Part shown: positions 12,398 to 36,884 of the stretch, piece after piece | How positions within the stretch are numbered: position 1 is the first letter of the stretch | Layout: the number at the start of each line of letters is the position of its first letter | Source of the DNA: a virus | IMG/VR virus record: IMGVR_UViG_3300044844_000901 | Coordinates: 1-40,022 of that record | Strand: one strand, 5' to 3' | DNA length: 40,022 nt | Translations under genes and position numbers: made by a program | Notes under the pieces: model-generated | Told to the model about the DNA's origin: nothing | What the model saw: only the letters and a program-made list of their open reading frames with translations | The model's database searches: none

Positions 12398-13081
12398 TCA
12401 GCGGATGGCTGGGGTGTGCCGGGTGGCGATTTGATTGAGATGAGTATCGAGCAGGCGCTGGATGCTTTGGCTGGTCTGCTCCTGGCCATCGGTGCGGAGA
12501 TAGGCCTGCACGACGGCTTGCCGGACGGGGATGTTGAGGAAGCCGGGCACCTTGACGATGGCCCACTTACTGGCGGCCAGATCGGTGGCAAAGGTGCCGC
12601 TGGTGTGCGCGGTGAGGCAGTAGTAGCAATCGTTGCCTTCGAGCCGCACATCGCCGACGACATACGGGGTGCCGGTGGCCCAGGCGGTGCTGGAGAACAC
12701 GGGCGGTGCCTCGATGTGCGCGACCCACAGCGTGGCATCGGTCACGGTGTCGGGCACGATGATGTCCGTGCCGGCCACGTCATACTCGCGCGGCGTGGGG
12801 TTGCTGCTTTTCCACGGGTGCTCTTTGGTGACGCCGAGCACGTGACACACGCCCCAGTAGCCCGCGCCAACGGCATTCAGATCAATGACCTGCGAAGTCA
12901 CCGTTTCGGAGGTGGCTTTTCGCAGTTCGCGCCAGCCGTCGAGATTCCACGGATAGGCGTAATCGAGCGCCGTGTTGATGTAGGAGGTGAACCGCGCATT
13001 GAGCGTGGAGTCCTGCGCGCTGAGCAGGCCTGCGTCCTCGATGCAGCCGTCACGCAGCGTTTTGAAAGCGACGCCATTCAT
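12398..13081 (-). CDS. Head-tail connector/tail tubular-like protein, 227 aa
   Basis: The N-terminus (LRDGCIEDAGLLSAQD) and length resemble gatekeeper or tail-tubular-A adaptor proteins that dock below the portal. In the middle a WATGTPYVVGDV...YYCLTAHTSG block resembles a carbohydrate-binding module (ChtBD3/CBM5_12-like) inserted in virion proteins. The C-terminus is helical with repeated Gln/Thr. The gene lies four genes after the capsid, a usual place for adaptors. The start overlaps the preceding gene by ATGA. Confidence 0.7.
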   Translation of the reverse strand: MNGVAFKTLRDGCIEDAGLLSAQDSTLNARFTSYINTALDYAYPWNLDGWRELRKATSETVTSQVIDLNAVGAGYWGVCHVLGVTKEHPWKSSNPTPREYDVAGTDIIVPDTVTDATLWVAHIEAPPVFSSTAWATGTPYVVGDVRLEGNDCYYCLTAHTSGTFATDLAASKWAIVKVPGFLNIPVRQAVVQAYLRTDGQEQTSQSIQRLLDTHLNQIATRHTPAIR

Positions 13082-13509
13082 GCAGCCACCCCCATTCCGT
13101 ATTTGCTGCCGAGCACGAGCTGCGGCGCGGTGCCGCGTGAGGTATCCATGTCAGGCGTCCAGCCGCTGCGCGGTTGCGCACTTTGATACTTGACCACGGT
13201 CTGCGTGTTCTTCTTGGCGTAGTCGCGGCGAAATTCGTCCTCCGCCCACACGTTTTGACAGCCGAGTTCATTCCGGCCTTTGTTCAGCCAGTAGAAGTAG
13301 GAATTGGAGTCGATGCTGCTGGAGATGTAACCCAGGCCATCGACGGCGGCGCTGCGGGCATGGCCCACTTCAGCGCGGCTTTGCTCCTTCTGCATGGCCC
13401 AGTGCTTCTGCAATTCCCAGCCCGTGCGAAACTCCCGCTCCACAGCAGCCACCAGCGAGGGTCCACCCTGCGCGTGCAGCTCGGCAATGAGTTCTTCGGA
13501 GTCAAACAT
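13078..13509 (-). CDS. Hypothetical head/connector protein, 143 aa
   Basis: The N-terminal half is helical and charged (MFDSEELIAELHAQGG...VEREFRTGWELQKHWAMQKE); the C-terminal half is loop-rich (QPRSGWTPDMDTSRGTAPQL). It lies between the probable decoration protein and the connector-like protein and overlaps the latter by 4 bases. No family recognised; a head-completion or connector role is suggested only by position. Confidence 0.75.
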   Translation of the reverse strand: MFDSEELIAELHAQGGPSLVAAVEREFRTGWELQKHWAMQKEQSRAEVGHARSAAVDGLGYISSSIDSNSYFYWLNKGRNELGCQNVWAEDEFRRDYAKKNTQTVVKYQSAQPRSGWTPDMDTSRGTAPQLVLGSKYGMGVAA

Positions 13510-21649: not shown

Positions 21650-21714
21650 GGGGTAATGGGGATGTTTCCGGTTTTGCGGGTATTATGCGGAATGGTGGTT
21701 GGAATAATTACCGT

Positions 21715-21912
21715 TCAGCATATGCGGCCACCCCGCGTTGGAGGCGACTGAGCCGGGAGCGATTCAGTGCGCTCGACGGTCTTCTTTGTGCGTTTATTGA
21801 ATACCGTTTGAAGGTGTTCCTTCACCACGGCGGTTTGTGCTTCGGTCAGTGCTCGGGGGTTTTGCACCTCAAACAAGCCTTGCAGCCAATAACAAAAGTT
21901 TTCGGGGGTCAT
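21715..21912 (-). CDS. Conserved small phage protein, 65 aa
   Basis: The N-terminus MTPENFCYWLQGLFEVQNP and the following helix (LTEAQTAVVKEHLQTVFNK) match a short hypothetical protein type seen in many tailed phages. The function is unknown. It lies just upstream of terminase, after a 143-bp gap in which I see no other feature. No ribosome site is visible at the ATG at 21912. Confidence 0.75.
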   Translation of the reverse strand: MTPENFCYWLQGLFEVQNPRALTEAQTAVVKEHLQTVFNKRTKKTVERTESLPAQSPPTRGGRIC

Positions 21913-22055
21913 AATGTGATAAGGTTGATGTTTGGACTTTGATGCTGAACAAAGAAAATGCAGGCCGCGGCTCGAAGATCATCTGTCGTGCAAATCAGGC
22001 TTGGCGCTCGCCGTCGCCTGATTTTCGACGGTTGGCGTGCATTTCCCTTCACAGT

Positions 22056-22460
22056 TCAAAACGGGATGTCATCGTCCTCCATGCCGTCGGCCATGGGTGC
22101 CTCGCTGCCGCCGGTCACGGGCGAGCCTGCGGCGGGGCGGGCGGTGCGCTGGCCACCAAGTTCAAACTCACGGGCATTGCCGAGGAAGTGCAGATTGGGA
22201 GGCTGCGGGCTTTCGCGCTCGGCTTTGGTGGTGCTTTCTTTGATCCAGTGCGTGTTTCCATACTCGTCTTTGCCGTCCTTGTTGGGCACGATGTCAATGG
22301 AAAGGCCGAGCTTGCCCGATTTCTCGGAGCGACGGATGCGCGAGTCCTTGAGCACGATGACAAGGCATTCCTGCGGCGTGCCAGCGCGGTCTTTGATCTG
22401 CATCAGATGCGCTCCTTGCAGCTTGGCGGGGTCAATGTAGGCGTTGAGTTTGTTGGGCAT
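22056..22460 (-). CDS. ssb: Single-stranded DNA-binding protein (SSB-like)
   Basis: This 134-aa protein has an N-terminal beta-rich domain (about residues 1-100) and an unstructured Gly/Ala/Pro linker that ends in MEDDDIPF, the acidic DDDIPF tail typical of bacterial and phage SSBs and used to dock replication partners. The OB-fold domain is not closely familiar, so it may be a diverged type. It follows DnaB by 36 bases in the replication group, which supports the role of protecting ssDNA at the fork. Confidence 0.7.
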   Translation of the reverse strand: MPNKLNAYIDPAKLQGAHLMQIKDRAGTPQECLVIVLKDSRIRRSEKSGKLGLSIDIVPNKDGKDEYGNTHWIKESTTKAERESPQPPNLHFLGNAREFELGGQRTARPAAGSPVTGGSEAPMADGMEDDDIPF

Positions 22461-29837: not shown

Positions 29838-30245
29838 ATGTCCATTCCCCAAACACCTGCCCAGCCCGTCCGCATCAAAGCCGCATTCAGCCTCGTTTAT
29901 TACAGCGAGCAGCGCGCACACGATGTGCCGCGTGCCCGCGTTGCTTATCTTCTGCGCGCCGCCCGCAGTCGCGGCCTTGCCCACCGCCCGCGCTTACAGC
30001 CTAGCGGCGATTACCTCCTGCCCGATCTCGCGACCATCTTCCGCCGTCAAAGCGCGGCCCCCGTTCGCCCAGCGCGCAACCTCAGTTGTTGTTGCTGCGG
30101 TCAGCGCACCAAAGGCCGCCAATGGTGGAACAGAGACACCGGTTATGGCGTCTGCACCCCGTGCGGAAACGCCACAGCCCACAAAGAAGGCGAAGCCGCT
30201 GCGACCTCCTACTACGGCACGCGCGGCATTCATTGGGATCTTTAA
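29838..30245 (+). CDS. Small zinc-finger-like protein, 135 aa
   Basis: The N-terminal part is basic with an Arg-rich helix (ARVAYLLRAARSRGLAHRPR). The C-terminus has CCCCGQRTKGRQWW and then CTPCG, two Cys pairs spaced like a zinc ribbon. It follows the DUF932-like gene by 58 bases. It is probably a nucleic-acid- or protein-binding accessory factor; no family recognised. Confidence 0.7.
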   Translation: MSIPQTPAQPVRIKAAFSLVYYSEQRAHDVPRARVAYLLRAARSRGLAHRPRLQPSGDYLLPDLATIFRRQSAAPVRPARNLSCCCCGQRTKGRQWWNRDTGYGVCTPCGNATAHKEGEAAATSYYGTRGIHWDL

Positions 30246-30281
30246 CCCGTCAACAACGTCAACCAGGTCAACAACGTCACC
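30246..30281 (+). repeat. GTCAAC-type intergenic repeat, site 1
   Basis: Directly after the TAA: CCC then four 9-bp units GTCAACAAC, GTCAACCAG, GTCAACAAC, GTCACC. Related runs follow two other plus-strand stop codons (30659 and 33866). Confidence 0.7.
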
Positions 30282-30403: not shown

Positions 30404-30658
30404 ATGACCACCGCCACCATCACCCGCATTGAAGACAACCACGGCATCAAAACCGCCCACCTGGAATGGTCCGGCCCAGACGACCACACTGTCGAAGATT
30501 TCGACCTCGGCCAACTCGGCCAACGCTGCACAGGCATCGGCCGCTCAACAGGCGGCAACCTGCGCGGCGGCTGGGTCATCTTGGAAGGCGAGTGCCAGCT
30601 CCACGAAGGCGACACCATCAGCCTGTTGGCCACCGAAACCGAAACCGAAGCCGCCTAA
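30404..30658 (+). CDS. Hypothetical small protein, 84 aa
   Basis: An acidic, beta-looking protein (TATITRIEDNHGIKTAHLEW, GGWVILEGECQLHEGDTISL) ending in a Glu/Thr tail. It has its own copy of the promoter/leader element, so it is probably an early or lysogenic gene. No family recognised. Confidence 0.7.
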   Translation: MTTATITRIEDNHGIKTAHLEWSGPDDHTVEDFDLGQLGQRCTGIGRSTGGNLRGGWVILEGECQLHEGDTISLLATETETEAA

Positions 30659-30685
30659 CCCGTCAACCAGGTCAACAACGTCACC
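30659..30685 (+). repeat. GTCAAC-type intergenic repeat, site 2
   Basis: Follows the stop codon as CCC then GTCAACCAG, GTCAACAAC, GTCACCC. Same family as 30246-30281, minus the first unit. Confidence 0.7.
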
Positions 30686-30696
30686 CAAACGCACAA

Positions 30697-31083: not shown

Positions 31084-31100
31084 AAACAACGATTTAATGC
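31077..31100 (+). promoter_or_regulatory. Probable operator/promoter of the repressor gene
   Basis: TTGTTGAAAACAA is an inverted repeat (TTGTT/AACAA), followed by CGATTTAATGC. It shares the TTG...CAAC...TTAA pattern with the duplicated leader elements and lies 14 bases before the ATG at 31115, fitting an autoregulated operator. Confidence 0.4.
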
Positions 31101-31114
31101 ACCAAGCTGGACGC

Positions 31115-31555
31115 ATGAGCCATCTATCCGTCCAACTCGAAGACTACCTTCAGCGCAACCCCACGCGCACCATCCTCAGCCTCGAAAACACCGCCGGCCT
31201 CAAACGCGGCACCATCGACAGCATCCGCCGCGACCAGCATCCGCGCCCCGAGCGCTTTGGCCAGCTCCTCCGCGCCGTCGATGACGAAACCGCCCGCCGC
31301 TGGCTCATCGCCTATTTGCGCGACGACTGCCCGCCCGACTACCTCCCGCGCCTCGAGATCACCATCGCCGCCATCGCCGAGTCCGATCCCGGCACCCTCC
31401 GCGAAGCCGTCACCGCCCACACCACCGGCCACATCGACACCAGCCCCGCCGCAGTTTTAGAAGCCTGGCACCGCCTCCAATCCGCCATCCAGGCCGACAA
31501 CTCCCTCGCCAAATGGTTCATCAAGACCGTCAACCTCATCCTCGGCGAAAAGTGA
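31115..31555 (+). CDS. Putative phage repressor (HTH), 146 aa
   Basis: The N-terminal ~65 residues form an XRE-like HTH (ILSLENTAGLKRGTIDSIRR, then HPRPERFGQLLRAV), followed by a helical C-terminal domain ending AKWFIKTVNLILGEK. It stands upstream of the small-gene cluster with an operator-like palindrome at its start, so a lysogeny repressor is plausible. There is no LexA-type cleavage motif. The ATG at 31115 is preferred to 31097, which lies inside the operator-like site. Confidence 0.6.
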   Translation: MSHLSVQLEDYLQRNPTRTILSLENTAGLKRGTIDSIRRDQHPRPERFGQLLRAVDDETARRWLIAYLRDDCPPDYLPRLEITIAAIAESDPGTLREAVTAHTTGHIDTSPAAVLEAWHRLQSAIQADNSLAKWFIKTVNLILGEK

Positions 31556-31687
31556 ACGACCAGGATCAGGCAACCCTGGGGCATAACCACGAAAGACACT
31601 CACCAGCCTCAAATACATGACCGAAGAAACCGACTCTCAAACTCCGACAAACCGACCCACTGGGTTGCCTGCATCCGCTGGTTCCGC
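31551..31687 (+). other. attC-like imperfect palindrome 1
   Basis: The 5' arm 31551-31576 (from AGTGAACGACC) and the 3' arm 31662-31687 (ending GGTTCCGC) are inverse-complementary over about 20 positions with small bulges: CAGGCAACCC pairs with GGGTTGCCTG. Total length is 137 bp. The 5' arm starts at the stop codon of the HTH gene, as attC sites do. The outer box GTTCCGC is not a perfect GTTRRRY. It may be a degenerate integron recombination site. Confidence 0.45.
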
Positions 31688-31982
31688 TTTCGTGGTCAAG
31701 CAGTTCGTTGAATGTCCAAACTGCGGCAAACTCTGGCTTTACGACGGTCACGCTGCTGATGTGTGCTGCGGCGGATGCAGCCACAACTTTTATGTGCCAC
31801 CGGACGCAATGACTCGCCGCTTGCACGAATGCGAATCTGTCTTGCGCTCAGTGGTGAAAAACGTGCCAATCATGGCAGCGGGCTTTGGAGGCACCTTGCT
31901 GCACTCGAAGTGCGTCGCGCTAGTCGGTGAGCAGAACGCCGAAGCTGTGGCGACGGCGAGCACTGAGGCCCCGCAACCGTGA
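31617..31982 (+). CDS. Zinc-ribbon small protein, up to 121 aa
   Basis: The core has CPNCGKLWLYDG then CCGGCSHNF, a classical two-knuckle zinc ribbon, followed by a helical tail. The first 25 codons (31617-31691) lie within the attC-like palindrome; a GTG at 31692 just after it (VVKQFVECPNCG) is a likelier start and would give 96 aa. A cassette-type gene is suggested by this layout. The function is unknown. Confidence 0.65.
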   Translation: MTEETDSQTPTNRPTGLPASAGSAFVVKQFVECPNCGKLWLYDGHAADVCCGGCSHNFYVPPDAMTRRLHECESVLRSVVKNVPIMAAGFGGTLLHSKCVALVGEQNAEAVATASTEAPQP

Positions 31983-32071
31983 CAGATAAATTTCGAGCCG
32001 TTGCCACCAGCGCATGGTTCAGGGCACGGCACCCCAGACTGCCGAAGTAGAAACCAAACGACAACGATAAC

Positions 32072-32383
32072 ATGGAAACCACGACACCAAACCCAGACCA
32101 GCAAGAAGCCTTTGTCTTCCAGACGAAGCAATGGCGCAAAGACCTCGATGAATGCCTCCAACGCCTCAAACAAGGCAGTGACAAAGGCTACACCGGAGAA
32201 CGTGCGCCAGACCATCCCGTGCGCTCATCGCGTGAACGCAGCCTCGCCGTGACCAAGATCGAGGAAGCAATCATGTGGCTCGGCATGGACCTCAAGGCGC
32301 AGAACACGCCGAATCCATACCCGCACAGCAAAGACCCGACATCGCTCGTGATCGAGCCGACGGCTGACGGACTGAAAATGTAA
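32072..32383 (+). CDS. Acb2/Tad1-like protein (putative anti-CBASS/Thoeris), 103 aa
   Basis: The C-terminal part SSRERSLAVTKIEEAIMWLG followed by MDLKAQNTPNPYP and EPTADGLKM closely resembles the helical hairpin found in the Acb2/Tad1 family, whose characterised members sequester cyclic nucleotide signals of CBASS and Thoeris defence. The N-terminal helix (QWRKDLDECLQRLK) is typical of the family's first helix. If right, it would protect the phage during infection. The assignment is from remembered family signature, not a search. Confidence 0.6.
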   Translation: METTTPNPDQQEAFVFQTKQWRKDLDECLQRLKQGSDKGYTGERAPDHPVRSSRERSLAVTKIEEAIMWLGMDLKAQNTPNPYPHSKDPTSLVIEPTADGLKM

Positions 32384-32396
32384 CGCCACCTGTGAC

Positions 32397-32434
32397 GGGC
32401 GCTCACGAAGTCCGAAAGACTAACGTGAGTGCCC
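32397..32434 (+). terminator. Long stem-loop before the attC-like site
   Basis: GGGCGCTCACG and CGTGAGTGCCC pair over 11 positions (one G-U), and AGTC/GACT extends the stem inside with a CGAAA loop. Its end overlaps the attC-like 5' arm by 4 bases. Possible uses: terminator of the Acb2-like gene or a second recombination-site palindrome. Confidence 0.5.
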
Positions 32435-32540
32435 TGAACGACAAGGTGAGACAGCCGAACCAATGATTCCCACGAACCAAAAACCTCCCGCGAATGAAAA
32501 CGTGGCAAGCACTCGGCTTGTCTCCATCGCCTTGTTAGGC
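32431..32540 (+). other. attC-like imperfect palindrome 2
   Basis: The 5' arm (32431-32458) reads GCCCTGAACGACAAGGTGAG then ACAGCCGA. The 3' arm (32513-32540) ends CCTTGTTAGGC, with the exact core GTTAGGC (GTTRRRY) at 32534. Arms are inverse-complementary with bulges, and CCACG/CGTGG (32470/32501) forms an inner stem, giving a 110-bp attC-type fold in the orientation expected for the Acb2-like cassette. A GCCTAAC box at 32796 mirrors the core at the end of the next gene. Confidence 0.55.
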
Positions 32541-32801
32541 TCAGTTTTTAATTTTATGATTACCGAATACCAACCCGAACTCTGGACGGTTCAGAAGGAT
32601 GACATATACGCCGCGATTCACGCGCTCGACGCTGGCCTTGAGCACACACGCTCTTTGCTCGGGGACCACGACGTTGCGCTCGGACGAACGACCCGCAAAA
32701 ACAAGATGTGGGCCGAGCAACTGGAGCGCGACGTTGAGAACATGGAGCGAACGCTCACCCGGCTTCGTAAATATGGACCGCATACGGTGCCTTCTGCCTA
32801 A
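32463..32801 (+). CDS. Cassette-like hypothetical protein, up to 112 aa
   Basis: Helical protein; the ATG at 32463 lies inside the attC-like palindrome, so the real start is probably the ATG at 32556 (MITEYQPELWTVQKDDIYAA), 15 bases after its end, giving 81 aa. It has a coiled-coil-like C-terminus (WAEQLERDVENMERTLTRL). The stop TAA is embedded in GCCTAAC (32796-32802), an inverse core box, after which IntI begins within 35 bases. The function is unknown. Confidence 0.65.
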   Translation: MIPTNQKPPANENVASTRLVSIALLGSVFNFMITEYQPELWTVQKDDIYAAIHALDAGLEHTRSLLGDHDVALGRTTRKNKMWAEQLERDVENMERTLTRLRKYGPHTVPSA

Positions 32802-32836
32802 CAGTTGAATTAACCCCACCTCCATTCTGAGTTATC

Positions 32837-33859
32837 ATGACAACCTCCGAATTCATCGAGCAAGTCATCTGTGCCGCCAAACGCGACCACAAAGCCCGCA
32901 AAACGTGGCAATGCTACGCAGGCTGGGCACGACGTTACGCCCTGTGGCTCCTCAGTCAGCCCGGCCTTCATGCAGCCGACTCAGAAACCAAAGTCAGCCG
33001 CTACCTCGCCCATCTCGCCACACGCCCCGGCGGCTGCTCACCCAAAACCCAGCAGCAGGCCCTCAACGCCCTCGTCTTCGCCTACAAGCACGGCCTCGGC
33101 ACCCCCTTGGGTCAAATGCCCGAATGGGTCAAACCACCCCAAAAACAGCGCCTCCCCGTCTGGCTCTCCAGCAGCGAATTCCAAGCCCTCGCCCATCATC
33201 TCGAAGGTCCCTGCCTTCTCATCGCCCAGATCATGTTCGGCAGCGGCCTCCGCCTCAACGAAGGCCTCCGCCTCCGCATCCGCGACATCGACCTCAGCGC
33301 CCGCCTCATTACCGTCCGCGGCGGCAAAGGCGACAAAGACCGCACCACCTGCCTACCCGCCAGCCTCATCCCCGTCCTTCAAGCCCGTTTCCAGCGTCTT
33401 GAAGCCCTCTGGCAAGCCGATCGCCGCCAAAACCTCCCCGGCGTCTGGTTGCCAGACTCCATCGCCCGCAAATACCCCCGCTATGGCGAAGACTGGCCCT
33501 GGCAATTCCTCTTCCCCGGCCGCCAGCCCTCACGCGACCCCGAAACCGGCATCATTCGCCGTCATCACCTCCACGAAGACACCCTCGCCAAAGCCCTCAA
33601 AAAAGCCGCCCAGCGCGCCCGCATCGGCAAACGCATCACCGTCCACACCCTCCGCCACAGCTTCGCCACCGCCTACCTCGAAAACGGCGGCAGCATCCAC
33701 AAGCTCAAAGAACTGCTAGGCCATGCTCATCTCGAAACCACCGAGCTCTACACCCACTGCATCCGCCAATTCGCCAGCGAAATCCGCAGTCCCCTCGACT
33801 CTCTGCCACAGCCAGCCTCCAACGTCGTGCCCTTCACCCCTCATCAACGCGCCGCCTAA
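32837..33859 (+). CDS. intI: Integron-type integrase (IntI-like tyrosine recombinase)
   Basis: This 340-aa tyrosine recombinase has an N-terminal SAM-like core-binding domain (residues 1-95) and a catalytic domain with Arg139 (GSGLRLNEGL), Lys164 (GGKGDKDR), His270/Arg273 (VHTLRHSFAT), His296 (LLGHAH) and nucleophile Tyr305. Between them lies the insertion diagnostic of integron integrases: RKYPRYGEDWPWQFLF and RDPETGIIRRHHLHEDTLAK (~210-252). IntI enzymes recombine attC sites. Here it is on the same strand as the cassette-like ORFs and follows a GCCTAAC box. Confidence 0.9.
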   Translation: MTTSEFIEQVICAAKRDHKARKTWQCYAGWARRYALWLLSQPGLHAADSETKVSRYLAHLATRPGGCSPKTQQQALNALVFAYKHGLGTPLGQMPEWVKPPQKQRLPVWLSSSEFQALAHHLEGPCLLIAQIMFGSGLRLNEGLRLRIRDIDLSARLITVRGGKGDKDRTTCLPASLIPVLQARFQRLEALWQADRRQNLPGVWLPDSIARKYPRYGEDWPWQFLFPGRQPSRDPETGIIRRHHLHEDTLAKALKKAAQRARIGKRITVHTLRHSFATAYLENGGSIHKLKELLGHAHLETTELYTHCIRQFASEIRSPLDSLPQPASNVVPFTPHQRAA

Positions 33860-33865
33860 TTCTTA

Positions 33866-33900
33866 CCCCGTCAACAACGTCAATGCAGTCAACAAAGTCA
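33866..33900 (+). repeat. GTCAAC-type intergenic repeat, site 3
   Basis: After the integrase stop: CCCC then GTCAACAAC, GTCAATGCA, GTCAACAAA, GTCA. Related to the repeats at 30246 and 30659. Confidence 0.65.
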
Positions 33901-33930
33901 TCCCCTTCGCCGCACTGCATCGCGCCGCCT

Positions 33931-34010
33931 AGTCTCCCAGTCTCCCAGTCTCCCAGTCTCCCAGTCTCCCAGTCTCCCAGTCTCCCAGTCTCCCAGTCTC
34001 CCAGTCTCCC
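33931..34010 (+). repeat. 8-bp tandem repeat, ten copies
   Basis: AGTCTCCC is repeated ten times without interruption (80 bp), ending 1 base before the ATG at 34012. The unit is not a multiple of three, so copy-number change would alter spacing or, if translation began upstream at 33883, the frame. It may be a phase-variable switch or a simple leader. Confidence 0.9.
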
Positions 34011-34011
34011 C

Positions 34012-34566
34012 ATGGACACCCCCGCTCTCCCCCTCGCCGATCTCCCCCCGCGTCCCATCGACGCCTGGCGCGAACACACCGCCAAAAACTGGAAGTCCAG
34101 CGACCCCGACTCCTACGCCGTCTGCATTGAGATGATCACCCAGCACGGCATCACCTCCATCTCCGATCTCCAGCGCGAACTCAAAACCCTCGAAATCGAC
34201 AAATCCCGCCAAACCATTGCCGCCCTCATGCGCAGCGAGTTCAGCATCGAGCAGCTTGCCGACCTCGCCGCCAAAAACGCCGCCATCGCCCGCCTTCAGG
34301 GCACCAGCAAAATGGCCGAGCTCATCCCCGACGCCAAAAAGTCCGACCTCATGGCCGTCTCCATGAGCAGCAAACTCGCCCACGACATCGAGCGCTCCCT
34401 CAACGGCATGCCCACCGAAATCAAAGCCGTCGTCACGATCAGCGCCCAGGATCGCTTAGCAGAGGCCCGCGCCAAAGCCGCCGCCGCCAAAGCCGCCGCC
34501 CTCGAACAGCAAAGCAGCACGGTCATCGAGGCCGAGATCCTCTCCACCGTCCCATCAAATGCCTAA
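34012..34566 (+). CDS. Hypothetical DNA-binding-like protein, 184 aa
   Basis: The start at 34012 directly follows the 8-bp repeats. Residues ~15-85 look like a helical N-terminus and HTH-like segment (ITSISDLQRELKTLEIDKSR), then helices with Ala/Lys/Glu-rich coiled coil (RLAEARAKAAAAKAAALEQQ). It resembles the size and style of some small terminase or regulatory subunits, but no motif decides this. Upstream in-frame codons run through the repeats and are excluded. Confidence 0.65.
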   Translation: MDTPALPLADLPPRPIDAWREHTAKNWKSSDPDSYAVCIEMITQHGITSISDLQRELKTLEIDKSRQTIAALMRSEFSIEQLADLAAKNAAIARLQGTSKMAELIPDAKKSDLMAVSMSSKLAHDIERSLNGMPTEIKAVVTISAQDRLAEARAKAAAAKAAALEQQSSTVIEAEILSTVPSNA

Positions 34567-34855
34567 TTCCATGCACGCCAACGATCAGCCCCCATGCGGC
34601 GATCTTGTTCCAATTCCCACGCCGAAACAGCGCGCGGCCAATCACCGCGCACTCTCAAAGCTGCATGCAGGAAATCGGTTCCGGCTCATGTTTGGCATGC
34701 CACTGCTCCCACAGCATGGACTCCGGCGCCGCTGCCTCCAATGCAATCGCGAATATGACTCGACGCTTTGCCAATGCCCCGACTGCCAATGCCAGATGTT
34801 TTGTGACCTCAACGCAAAAGAGCAGCAACCCGAAAGGAGCGCCCCAGATGCCTGA
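34559..34855 (+). CDS. Small protein with cysteine knuckles, 98 aa
   Basis: Contains CLQCNREY then CQCPDCQCQMFC, a dense set of Cys pairs suggesting a zinc ribbon or knuckle. The start overlaps the previous stop by 8 bases; ATG 34571 is an alternative. The function is unknown. It overlaps the next gene's start. Confidence 0.65.
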   Translation: MPNSMHANDQPPCGDLVPIPTPKQRAANHRALSKLHAGNRFRLMFGMPLLPQHGLRRRCLQCNREYDSTLCQCPDCQCQMFCDLNAKEQQPERSAPDA

Positions 34856-35126
34856 TCCAAAAACAAACTTGCCCGCTCCTGAGGGTTGCGCTGCCTCGCC
34901 TTGTTCGGCAGTTGGCGCAACTCACCACCACGCCTGCGCGTGCCGAGAAAAGGCTATGCTGGAAATCCTCGTGCTGGTTGAGCCGATCATGGAGGCATGG
35001 GCAAAATCTCACGAACTCGATGAGTGGCATTGTCGGGTGGAAGATTTGATAGGAACGGCCTACCCGAGTTTCATGTATCCGCAGAACGACCCTGATGAGA
35101 CAACCCCTGACCTAACCACAAAATGA
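34848..35126 (+). CDS. Hypothetical protein, 92 aa
   Basis: An AAAGGAG ribosome site 8 bases before the ATG at 34848 supports this start. The N-terminus is Pro/Cys/His-rich (GATHHHACACREK), followed by an amphipathic helical domain (MLEILVLVEPIMEAWAKSHE). Ends in an ATGA overlap with the next gene. No family recognised. Confidence 0.65.
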   Translation: MPDPKTNLPAPEGCAASPCSAVGATHHHACACREKAMLEILVLVEPIMEAWAKSHELDEWHCRVEDLIGTAYPSFMYPQNDPDETTPDLTTK

Positions 35127-35503
35127 CAACGAATACCAATGCACCCACGCCGGAGCTAGACGCTATCGAAGATCAAGACGCCCAAGGGGGTTGTCTCCAG
35201 CAGGCTTGTTCTTCTGTTTCGGAGACGCCTGAGACTGATGCCGCTCTAGTGGATCACATGCCAAAGGATGCCACCGAATGGTCAGAACATTATCTGTCGC
35301 TGAGTATCCATGCCAGAAAACTGGAACGCGAACGAGACGCCGCCAGAATCCCGATCTGCATCGGTAGGCCCATCATCGAGATACTTGCCAAAGAAGGCAT
35401 GTGGACCTCGATGAATGGCAACTCCGTTGTCGCTGCTGACTGCCTGTTCGGACGAAATCCCTATCAGGCGAACAAAGATTATCCAGAACACATTTCTGGA
35501 TAG
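35123..35503 (+). CDS. Hypothetical protein, 126 aa
   Basis: Last gene of the rightward arm. Long acidic N-terminus, SETPETDAA then a charged helix (HYLSLSIHARKLERERDAAR), a layout common to small phage proteins that begin with an ETPETDA-type motif. The function is unknown. Followed by an 84-bp gap and the convergent integrase gene. Confidence 0.7.
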   Translation: MTTNTNAPTPELDAIEDQDAQGGCLQQACSSVSETPETDAALVDHMPKDATEWSEHYLSLSIHARKLERERDAARIPICIGRPIIEILAKEGMWTSMNGNSVVAADCLFGRNPYQANKDYPEHISG

Positions 35504-35540
35504 CACCGGCAAAACCAGAAATACCGCCTCGGCGCTTCCT

Positions 35541-35587: not shown

Positions 35588-36844
35588 TCACCACTCCACC
35601 ACCGGAGCCTCGCCCGTCCAGGTCGCATAATAGCCCTCCGTCGTCGCCACCGAATCCCCCAGGAAATACGCCGCCGCCGCGATGCCGTGCGCCGTATAAA
35701 CGCGACTCGCGCTCAGCTTCCGCAGCTCATGGTTCACCTTCGAGCGCCCCGCCGGCACAAACGGCCGCAGCCACTCGCAATGATCCCGATAAATGAAATC
35801 ATAGCGGCGTGAATCCGTCCAGCCGTCACCGATCAAAAACCCCGCGCGCCCCTTCAGCAGCCCCTGGATCTCCGCATCCAGCGCCAAACGCCGCGGCCTG
35901 CCACCCTTCAACAGCCTGAAACCCGGCTCGCCACCCTCCGCAGCCCGAGGCCGCACATCCAGCCACGCCTTCCCCTCCGCCTCATTCCACTGCACCCAGC
36001 TCGCCCGCGCCGTCAGCAGCTCCGCATCCCGCAGCCCGAGGCGACGCAGCATGATGTGGCACAGGTAAAGCTCCGGCTCTTCCACCTTCAGCACCAGCGC
36101 CGCCGCATCCATCGCCGCCAGATTCTCCGTCGGCCACGGCACAAAATGCGTCGGCGGCGTCGGCAGCGCCGGAAACTTCCGCAGCGCATCCAGCGGAGGC
36201 AGCCGCAACCCCTTCAGGTGCCGCTCCACAATCCGCTCCTGAAACACACTCGCCGCATTCCGCAGCGTCGAATTTAGGCCCACATTCCCCGGCAGCGCAT
36301 CATGCCAATTCACGCCTCGGCCATCGCGGCCTTGTCCCACACTCACAAACCGCTCCAGCAGCCCGCGATTCAGCACCGCATCCAGCGCCACCGCATCCGG
36401 CCGCGCCTCATCCACCACCCGCGCCAGCCGCTTCAACGCTTCCAGATACCGCGCCCGCGTCCGATCCTCCATCACCTTATCCCCGCCCGTCACCGCCTCG
36501 CAAACATCCCCCACCGTCGCCATCGAGCCACGCACCAGCGCACCGGCCCCCAGCGCAAAACGCGCCGCCTTGATCTCCTCAATCCGCCGCAGCGCCACCC
36601 GCTCCGCATCCGCGATGTGCGGCCACCCGGTGGACTCCTGAAACCGCTCACCCTCCAGCTCAAAATCCATGCTCAGATTCGATGCCACCGTGCGCTTATA
36701 AAACCGCACCTTCACCCCCGCAATGCGTCGCTTCAGCGAAGCCGGCCGAGACGCCTTCACGCCCTGTGCAGCACCCGAAGGCACCAAAGAACCCGAAGAC
36801 ACGGCAGAGGAAAGGGCAGGGGAAGAGTCGTTGCGGTCGCTCAT
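35588..36844 (-). CDS. Prophage integrase (tyrosine recombinase)
   Basis: This 418-aa protein has the C-terminal catalytic pattern of phage integrases: Arg272 (GLRDAEL), Lys313 (LLKGGRPRR), His372/Arg375 in NHELRKLSASR, FLGDSVATTE (Asp397 where His is usual) and nucleophile Tyr405 or Tyr406 (GYYATW). The N-terminal ~220 residues hold the arm- and core-binding domains. It lies 149 bases from a tRNA-Leu-like sequence, the probable attP. ATG 36844 is taken as the start; a GTG at 36871 is an alternative. Confidence 0.85.
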   Translation of the reverse strand: MSDRNDSSPALSSAVSSGSLVPSGAAQGVKASRPASLKRRIAGVKVRFYKRTVASNLSMDFELEGERFQESTGWPHIADAERVALRRIEEIKAARFALGAGALVRGSMATVGDVCEAVTGGDKVMEDRTRARYLEALKRLARVVDEARPDAVALDAVLNRGLLERFVSVGQGRDGRGVNWHDALPGNVGLNSTLRNAASVFQERIVERHLKGLRLPPLDALRKFPALPTPPTHFVPWPTENLAAMDAAALVLKVEEPELYLCHIMLRRLGLRDAELLTARASWVQWNEAEGKAWLDVRPRAAEGGEPGFRLLKGGRPRRLALDAEIQGLLKGRAGFLIGDGWTDSRRYDFIYRDHCEWLRPFVPAGRSKVNHELRKLSASRVYTAHGIAAAAYFLGDSVATTEGYYATWTGEAPVVEW

Positions 36845-36884
36845 GTCACACTTTGTAACACCCAACGTCACACTCCGTCAAGCC

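Follow-up and report, generated by a model that had tools for sequence, protein, structure and literature searches.

In this study, we analysed a virus record from IMG/VR (IMGVR_UViG_3300044844_000901; 40,022 bases, referred to as a whole as the window), in which an integron integrase gene, intI, lies beside attC-like sites and small gene cassettes. Since the encoded proteins include an SU10-type major capsid protein, a DnaB helicase and a terminase-like protein, the window is taken to be a tailed phage. We consider it very probable that this phage carries a resident integron, with IntI capturing and shuffling cassettes at three arrays. A first-pass annotation had suggested an integron-like locus in a phage, and the IntI family, the attC anatomy and the cassettes were all confirmed, with three arrays taking the place of the one locus. 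These arrays extend over 31555-32836, adjoining intI, over 34811-35505, flanked by a small zinc-finger-like gene and a putative recombinase gene, and over 22033-21665 on the minus strand, before the terminase gene, and the 3' end of each is occupied by one attI-like site. In the mechanism we propose, the phage-resident IntI would recombine folded single-stranded attC sites with attI, or attC sites with one another, at G|TT, and would in this way insert, remove and shuffle small gene cassettes at three places of the genome.

Natural variation among related phages

IntI-mediated shuffling is well supported by the natural variation seen among sister phages, which were collected with flanking genes and cassettes as queries. 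The contig L003 matches the window at about 95% identity along most of its length, with window positions 31560-32795 and 34815-35468 replaced by unrelated sequence. Swapped open reading frames with breakpoints at G/TT, as anticipated in the first-pass annotation, are present: the border falls on AAC, corresponding to G|TT on the opposite strand, in 18 of the 19 comparisons, with a probability of 0.164 for each at a random position (the scripted count scored a fusion in L018, discussed below, as a match owing to an AAC nearby, and its single miss, the right end of cassette D, really lies at AAC with a substitution two bases before).

The same cassettes are found at different places in different sister phages. 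Cassette A resides in array 1 of the window, L016 and L018, and at the third place, before the terminase gene, in L019, L105-L108 and L110; across arrays 1 and 3 it has three different right-hand neighbours. The third place is empty in the window, reading GCACGCCAAC|CGTCG, and filled in L110, reading GCACGCCAAC|GACCAGG..cassette A..GAGCAGAAC|CGTCG; the window's site attC6 is the empty form of the site holding cassette A in L019 and L110. Cassette D, found in array 2 of the window, recurs in array 1 of L018 with 99.4% identity. The cassette with an Acb2-like gene is also found in L016, flanked there on either side by a copy of a further cassette, X; L018 carries X once.

The integrase

The intI gene (32837..33859, plus strand) encodes a protein of 340 residues which belongs to the integron integrase family. 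It reaches 325.9 bits against the integron integrase model TIGR02249 (cut-off 265), stays well under the cut-offs of every Xer model and has the Vibrio integrase VchIntI4 (2a3v) as its closest solved structure (216.6 bits, E 5e-63). Alignment places the IntI-specific insertion and the catalytic residues R139, H270, R273, H296 and Y305 all in the protein, in line with the IntI-type integrase with this insertion that had been recognised earlier. Taking the IntI/Xer phylogeny into account, the protein falls inside IntI and away from Xer: in a tree built from 40 proteins, it groups with two IntIs of related phages in a single clade (support 100/97), which lies among IntIs of Verrucomicrobiota, with Xer outside. 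This nesting is partly a sampling effect, since the bacterial sample came from one phylum and was joined by two gammaproteobacterial phage-borne IntIs. A second contig, L002, carries an intI identical to that of the window.

We additionally observed two losses of intI by in-frame deletions (L003 10001-10480 and L018 13329-13464), in which the N-terminus and the C-terminal ARAA-stop are kept and the inner ends differ; the remnant in L018 belongs to a different IntI lineage from the window's. In L032 (contig G006) and L034, intI is located in the array before the terminase gene and not in the array before the homologue of ORF 33883-34566, and therefore intI and its attI have themselves moved. 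Directly 3' of intI, positions 33928-34007 of the window hold about ten tandem copies of TCTCCCAG, and intergenic repeats of GTCAACAACGTCAACCAGGTCAACAACGTCA elements occur at 30242-30281, 30655-30692 and 33863-33900.

attC sites and array ends

The two attC-like palindromes that had been noticed earlier (31555-31687 and 32437-32540) both exist and are attC, their arms pairing as AACGACCAG..CTGGTT and AACGACAAGG..CCTTGTTAGGC. Their number had to be corrected, since the window holds six attC sites in three arrays, the further four lying at 31935-32023, 34811-34909, 35085-35214 and 22033-21944 (minus strand). The strand also had to be revised: the canonical attC strand is the minus strand and the folded bottom strand is the window's plus strand, with the AACG end as R' and the GTTAGGC end as R''. 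On the plus strand, the sites start with AACG (AACC in attC6) and end with TGGTT or TTGTT, after which comes a box resembling AGGC or CGGC; the stems vary in sequence and share one shape. Reading the attC sites on the plus strand with cleavage at CTTG|TTCGGC was ruled out, because the borders fall on AAC. For the mirror box GCCTAAC (32796-32802), the stop codon of cassette B indeed lies within it, while the box itself is no third full attC and marks where cassette B meets the attI-like site before intI.

Array 1 starts with attC1 (31555..31687, stem AACGACCAGGATCAGGCAACCC..GGGTTGCCTGCATCCGCTGGTTCCGC), which belongs to cassette A and is found with the same cassette and border in L016, L018 and L105-L110. 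It is followed by attC2 (31935..32023, border CAGAAC|G), the site of the cassette with the Acb2/Tad1-hairpin-like gene, and by attC3 (32437..32540) of cassette B. Array 2 comprises attC4 (34811..34909) of cassette C, with the border CTCAAC|G relative to L003 and L018, and attC5 (35085..35214) of cassette D, which has a long stem. All of these are read with the plus strand as the folded bottom strand. The only site of array 3, attC6 (21944..22033, minus strand), has the gene ending at 22056 on one side and the terminase gene on the other.

For a check against attC models, 43 reference sites from other integrons (one Shewanella phage, one Vibrio phage and five Verrucomicrobiota chromosomes) were collected, which align nearly without gaps and show covarying pairs. 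From 38 of them we built an independent pair profile with free loop length, in whose training the window's phage family took no part. Four window sites are among its top five matches, namely attC6 (25.0 bits, the window's best site), attC3 (23.2 bits), attC5 (21.7 bits) and attC4 (16.2 bits, which taken alone is within chance), at ranks 1, 2, 3 and 5. Three matches of at least 20 bits were obtained in the window, all of them in arrays, against 0.27 expected per shuffled window. A strict search for RYYYAAC/GTTRRRY on the canonical strand overlooked even known attC sites, and the bottom strand was searched instead.

Some phage attC sites have bacterial counterparts of recognisably the same sequence. 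The site attC2 matches an attC-like site of the Verrucomicrobiota genome G200 at 74% identity over 90 bases, the 3' arm of attC3 matches, at 85% over 48 bases, a site of G270 that is 1.5 kb away from intI, and an attC of G134 has ATCAGGCGACGGCG...CGAGCCGTTGCCTGCAT in common with phage sites of L021 and L024.

At the other end of the arrays, the first attI-like site (32800..32836, minus strand, reading ..GGGGTTAATTCAACTG|TT) lies between cassette B and intI and adjoins the intI start as in canonical integrons. The array border CTG|TT adjoins intI here, and divergence between the window and L003 begins exactly at AACAG. The second attI-like site (35471..35520, minus strand; plus strand AACAAAGATTATCCAGAACACATTTCTGGATAGC) closes array 2, and its motif ends arrays in six relatives. 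The third (21661..21715, plus strand; minus strand AACGGTAATTATTCCAACCACC..ACCCGCAAAACCGGAAAC) agrees with the second in spacing and flanks and has a clearer form in L099 at minus 8258. The approximate motif AACnnnGATTATCCAGAACACmTTTCTGGATAGCACCsGCAAAACCrGAAA is found at the 3' end of arrays 2 and 3 and likewise of arrays in L018, L020, L023, L032, L034 and L099, and it forms the right-hand border. These conserved array-end motifs are putative attI sites. We additionally note that the attI-like sites (window 35471-35503 and homologues) encode a tail, NKDYPEHISG, NTDYPEHLSR or NKNYPDNISG, which closes the reading frame of the last cassette; given its conservation, this tail peptide may itself be under selection.

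Cassette genes and their orientation

The gene of cassette A (31617..31982, plus strand) encodes 121 residues, zinc-ribbon-like by eye, of which the last 13 come from the next cassette. The following gene (32072..32383, plus strand; 103 residues) contains a borderline Acb2/Tad1 hairpin domain (PF24729, 28.7 bits, cut-off 27); its best solved chain has an E of 0.1, and a fold search from a poor single-sequence model (pLDDT 64) gave no match. Cassette B (32556..32801, plus strand) encodes 81 residues, or 112 when read from 32463, and has its stop codon in the border GCCTAAC. In array 2, the plus-strand gene of cassette C (34848..35126) encodes 92 residues, and L003 and L018 lack this cassette at the same place; cassette D (35123..35503, plus strand) encodes 126 residues, with its last ten codons (NKDYPEHISG) supplied by the second attI-like site. 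Cassette E of array 3 (21715..21912, minus strand) encodes 65 residues (MTPENFCYWLQG..), its stop overlapping AAC. In several cassettes the stop codon is created by the border itself (TGAAC or CTAAC), and attC sequence is translated because start codons often lie in attC loops. The cassettes presumably serve as exchangeable accessory genes, perhaps in counter-defence.

With the folded bottom strand in the phage assigned from the training integrons, the cassette genes are inverted, since the canonical attC strand is the minus strand. Of 19 phage cassettes, 16 have their longest open reading frame on the attC bottom strand, compared with 5 of 36 cassettes of other integrons (Fisher p 4e-7). Cassette genes of recognised families are all inverted, i.e. 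a PAPS reductase (L018), a DNA methylase (L021), an HTH gene (L032) and the Acb2 hairpin gene of the window. The L018 cassette (12410-13261) encodes a PAPS-reductase-domain protein resembling the BrxP, DndC and SspD models. Placement of intI is that of a textbook integron, with attI at its 5' end and the cassettes beyond. Orientation of cassette genes for expression from Pc at attI is usual in integrons, though not universal, and its lack is no bar to integron membership; in the window it is absent, and the cassette genes point toward attI. Because the cassettes point along the phage transcript, they are likely to be read from phage promoters and not from a promoter at attI.

Genomic context and host

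Verrucomicrobiota is most likely the host phylum of the phage. A search of 388 Verrucomicrobiota genomes with the putative recombinase and the capsid protein returned distant matches only (27-31%). The separate prophage integrase beside a tRNA attP proposed in the first-pass annotation was not borne out, as neither ARAGORN nor Rfam found a tRNA in the window. Judged by eye, ORF 35588-36871 (minus strand, 427 residues), which is conserved among the sister phages, resembles a highly divergent tyrosine recombinase (HELR..Y); none of the family models reached its cut-off (Arm-DNA-bind_2, E 0.028), and the AlphaFold model, with a pLDDT of 41, was unusable. Upstream of array 1, a conserved gene (31097..31555, plus strand) with relatives at ten loci has its TGA overlapping the first AAC border.

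Alternative explanations

Several observations weigh against the proposed resident phage integron. The intI gene is deleted in some sisters, with the catalytic core lost in frame in L003 and only about the first 40 codons remaining in L018 and L020, and therefore the activity may come in trans from a host or co-infecting IntI. The attI of array 1, beside the window's own intI, has diverged from the shared attI-like motif. Both attC1 and attC2 lack a score from the independent profile and are identified by homology and anatomy. Infernal's cmsearch with a shortened-loop covariance model gave a weak result in the window (13 bits, E 0.71), although this model is weak for long-looped sites, for which reason it was replaced by the pair profile, and it did detect sites at E 0.0006-0.0025 in the sister phages L018, L021, L022 and L034. 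Because some of the 19 borders depend on one another, the formal p-value of 1e-13 overstates the significance, while the pattern is still plain. In L018, a shortened cassette A is fused to cassette D at CGAA and not at AAC, and every contig compared is a metagenome assembly.

It is possible, if rather unlikely, that the attC sites are real and the phage merely hosts a mobile cassette cluster, with a host chromosomal IntI moving the cassettes and the phage intI being a passenger or decaying relic. The arrays still differ among L003 and L018/L020, where intI is truncated, the phage attC sites resemble those of Verrucomicrobiota chromosomes, and 81 of 289 genomes of this phylum carry IntI above the TIGR02249 cut-off, in several of them as two or more copies. 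However, in the window intI is intact and encodes every catalytic residue, and it has its identical copy in L002, and the phage IntIs form a clade of their own, adjoining phage arrays in L021, L022, L029 and L034. We presume that the window's IntI, rather than that of a host, carries out the recombination. Ordinary mosaicism, in which homologous recombination at short conserved borders swaps genes without an integrase, is improbable: phage genomes are mosaic and illegitimate junctions such as the CGAA fusion do occur, but the borders usually share only AAC and 0-3 further bases, too short for homologous recombination, one cassette moves between unlinked loci on both strands, cassette X is duplicated within one array, and the attC stems are alike in shape while unlike in sequence. 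It is more improbable still that the palindromes serve to terminate transcription or as regulatory hairpins between small genes. They are intergenic and foldable, and weak terminator activity is described for attC sites (PMC9892861); yet a T-run is absent, start codons lie inside the hairpins, and the AACG and TTGTT ends are conserved where the stems are not. Moreover, the hairpins mark the borders of exchanged segments, and these border data refute termination as a full explanation.

Significance and relation to known integrons

Gene swapping in phages is usually ascribed to chance recombination. Here, a phage lineage appears to use a known single-strand recombination system as a gene-exchange device, with natural variants that include an empty and a filled site. 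If true, this would provide a mechanism for rapid turnover of accessory genes in phages and would let genes pass in both directions between phage genomes and the cassette pools of bacterial integrons. The rule that a promoter at attI drives cassette expression would also gain an exception that can be tested. For a wider model, in which a Verrucomicrobiota phage family with its own IntI clade and three attI-bounded arrays has inverted cassettes read by phage transcription and trades accessory, possibly counter-defence, genes among phages and host integrons, we see the case as evenly balanced. A search of the open-access literature returned no report of such a phage-lineage integron, and the combination of a separate IntI clade with three arrays per genome, inverted cassette genes and cassette exchange in nature between sister phages appears to be new.

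Qi et al. 2023 (PMC9892861) describe integrons and attC clusters (CALINs) in phage genomes, with intI, attI, attC and cassettes as found here, and show in assays that phage attC sites work with IntI1. Methyltransferase cargo occurs in those phages and also here, in L021. Their complete cases are fragments derived from chromosomal integrons of the host, mosaics of class 1 or an inactive prophage, and a phage-lineage intI clade, a three-array genome or cassette exchange between sister phages is not reported in the sections consulted. The virus Rctr41k (KX853513) is likewise a phage, in which an IntI-like gene follows a series of small plus-strand open reading frames, and its IntI is the nearest to the phage IntI clade in our tree (86/81); scanning it with the pair profile gave no convincing attC (best 16.3 bits). 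Integrons of the Treponema type (PMC3607928) share one direction of transcription for intI and cassette genes, as does the phage, but their intI points toward the cassettes, whereas here the cassettes lie upstream of intI and are transcribed toward it, with attI at the 5' end of intI. The Verrucomicrobiota chromosomal integrons (L082, L087, L090 and L093) resemble the phage integron in IntI family, attC shape, partly attC sequence and an array beside the intI start. They differ in that their cassette genes diverge from intI, while those of the phage run with intI, and the phage holds three arrays.

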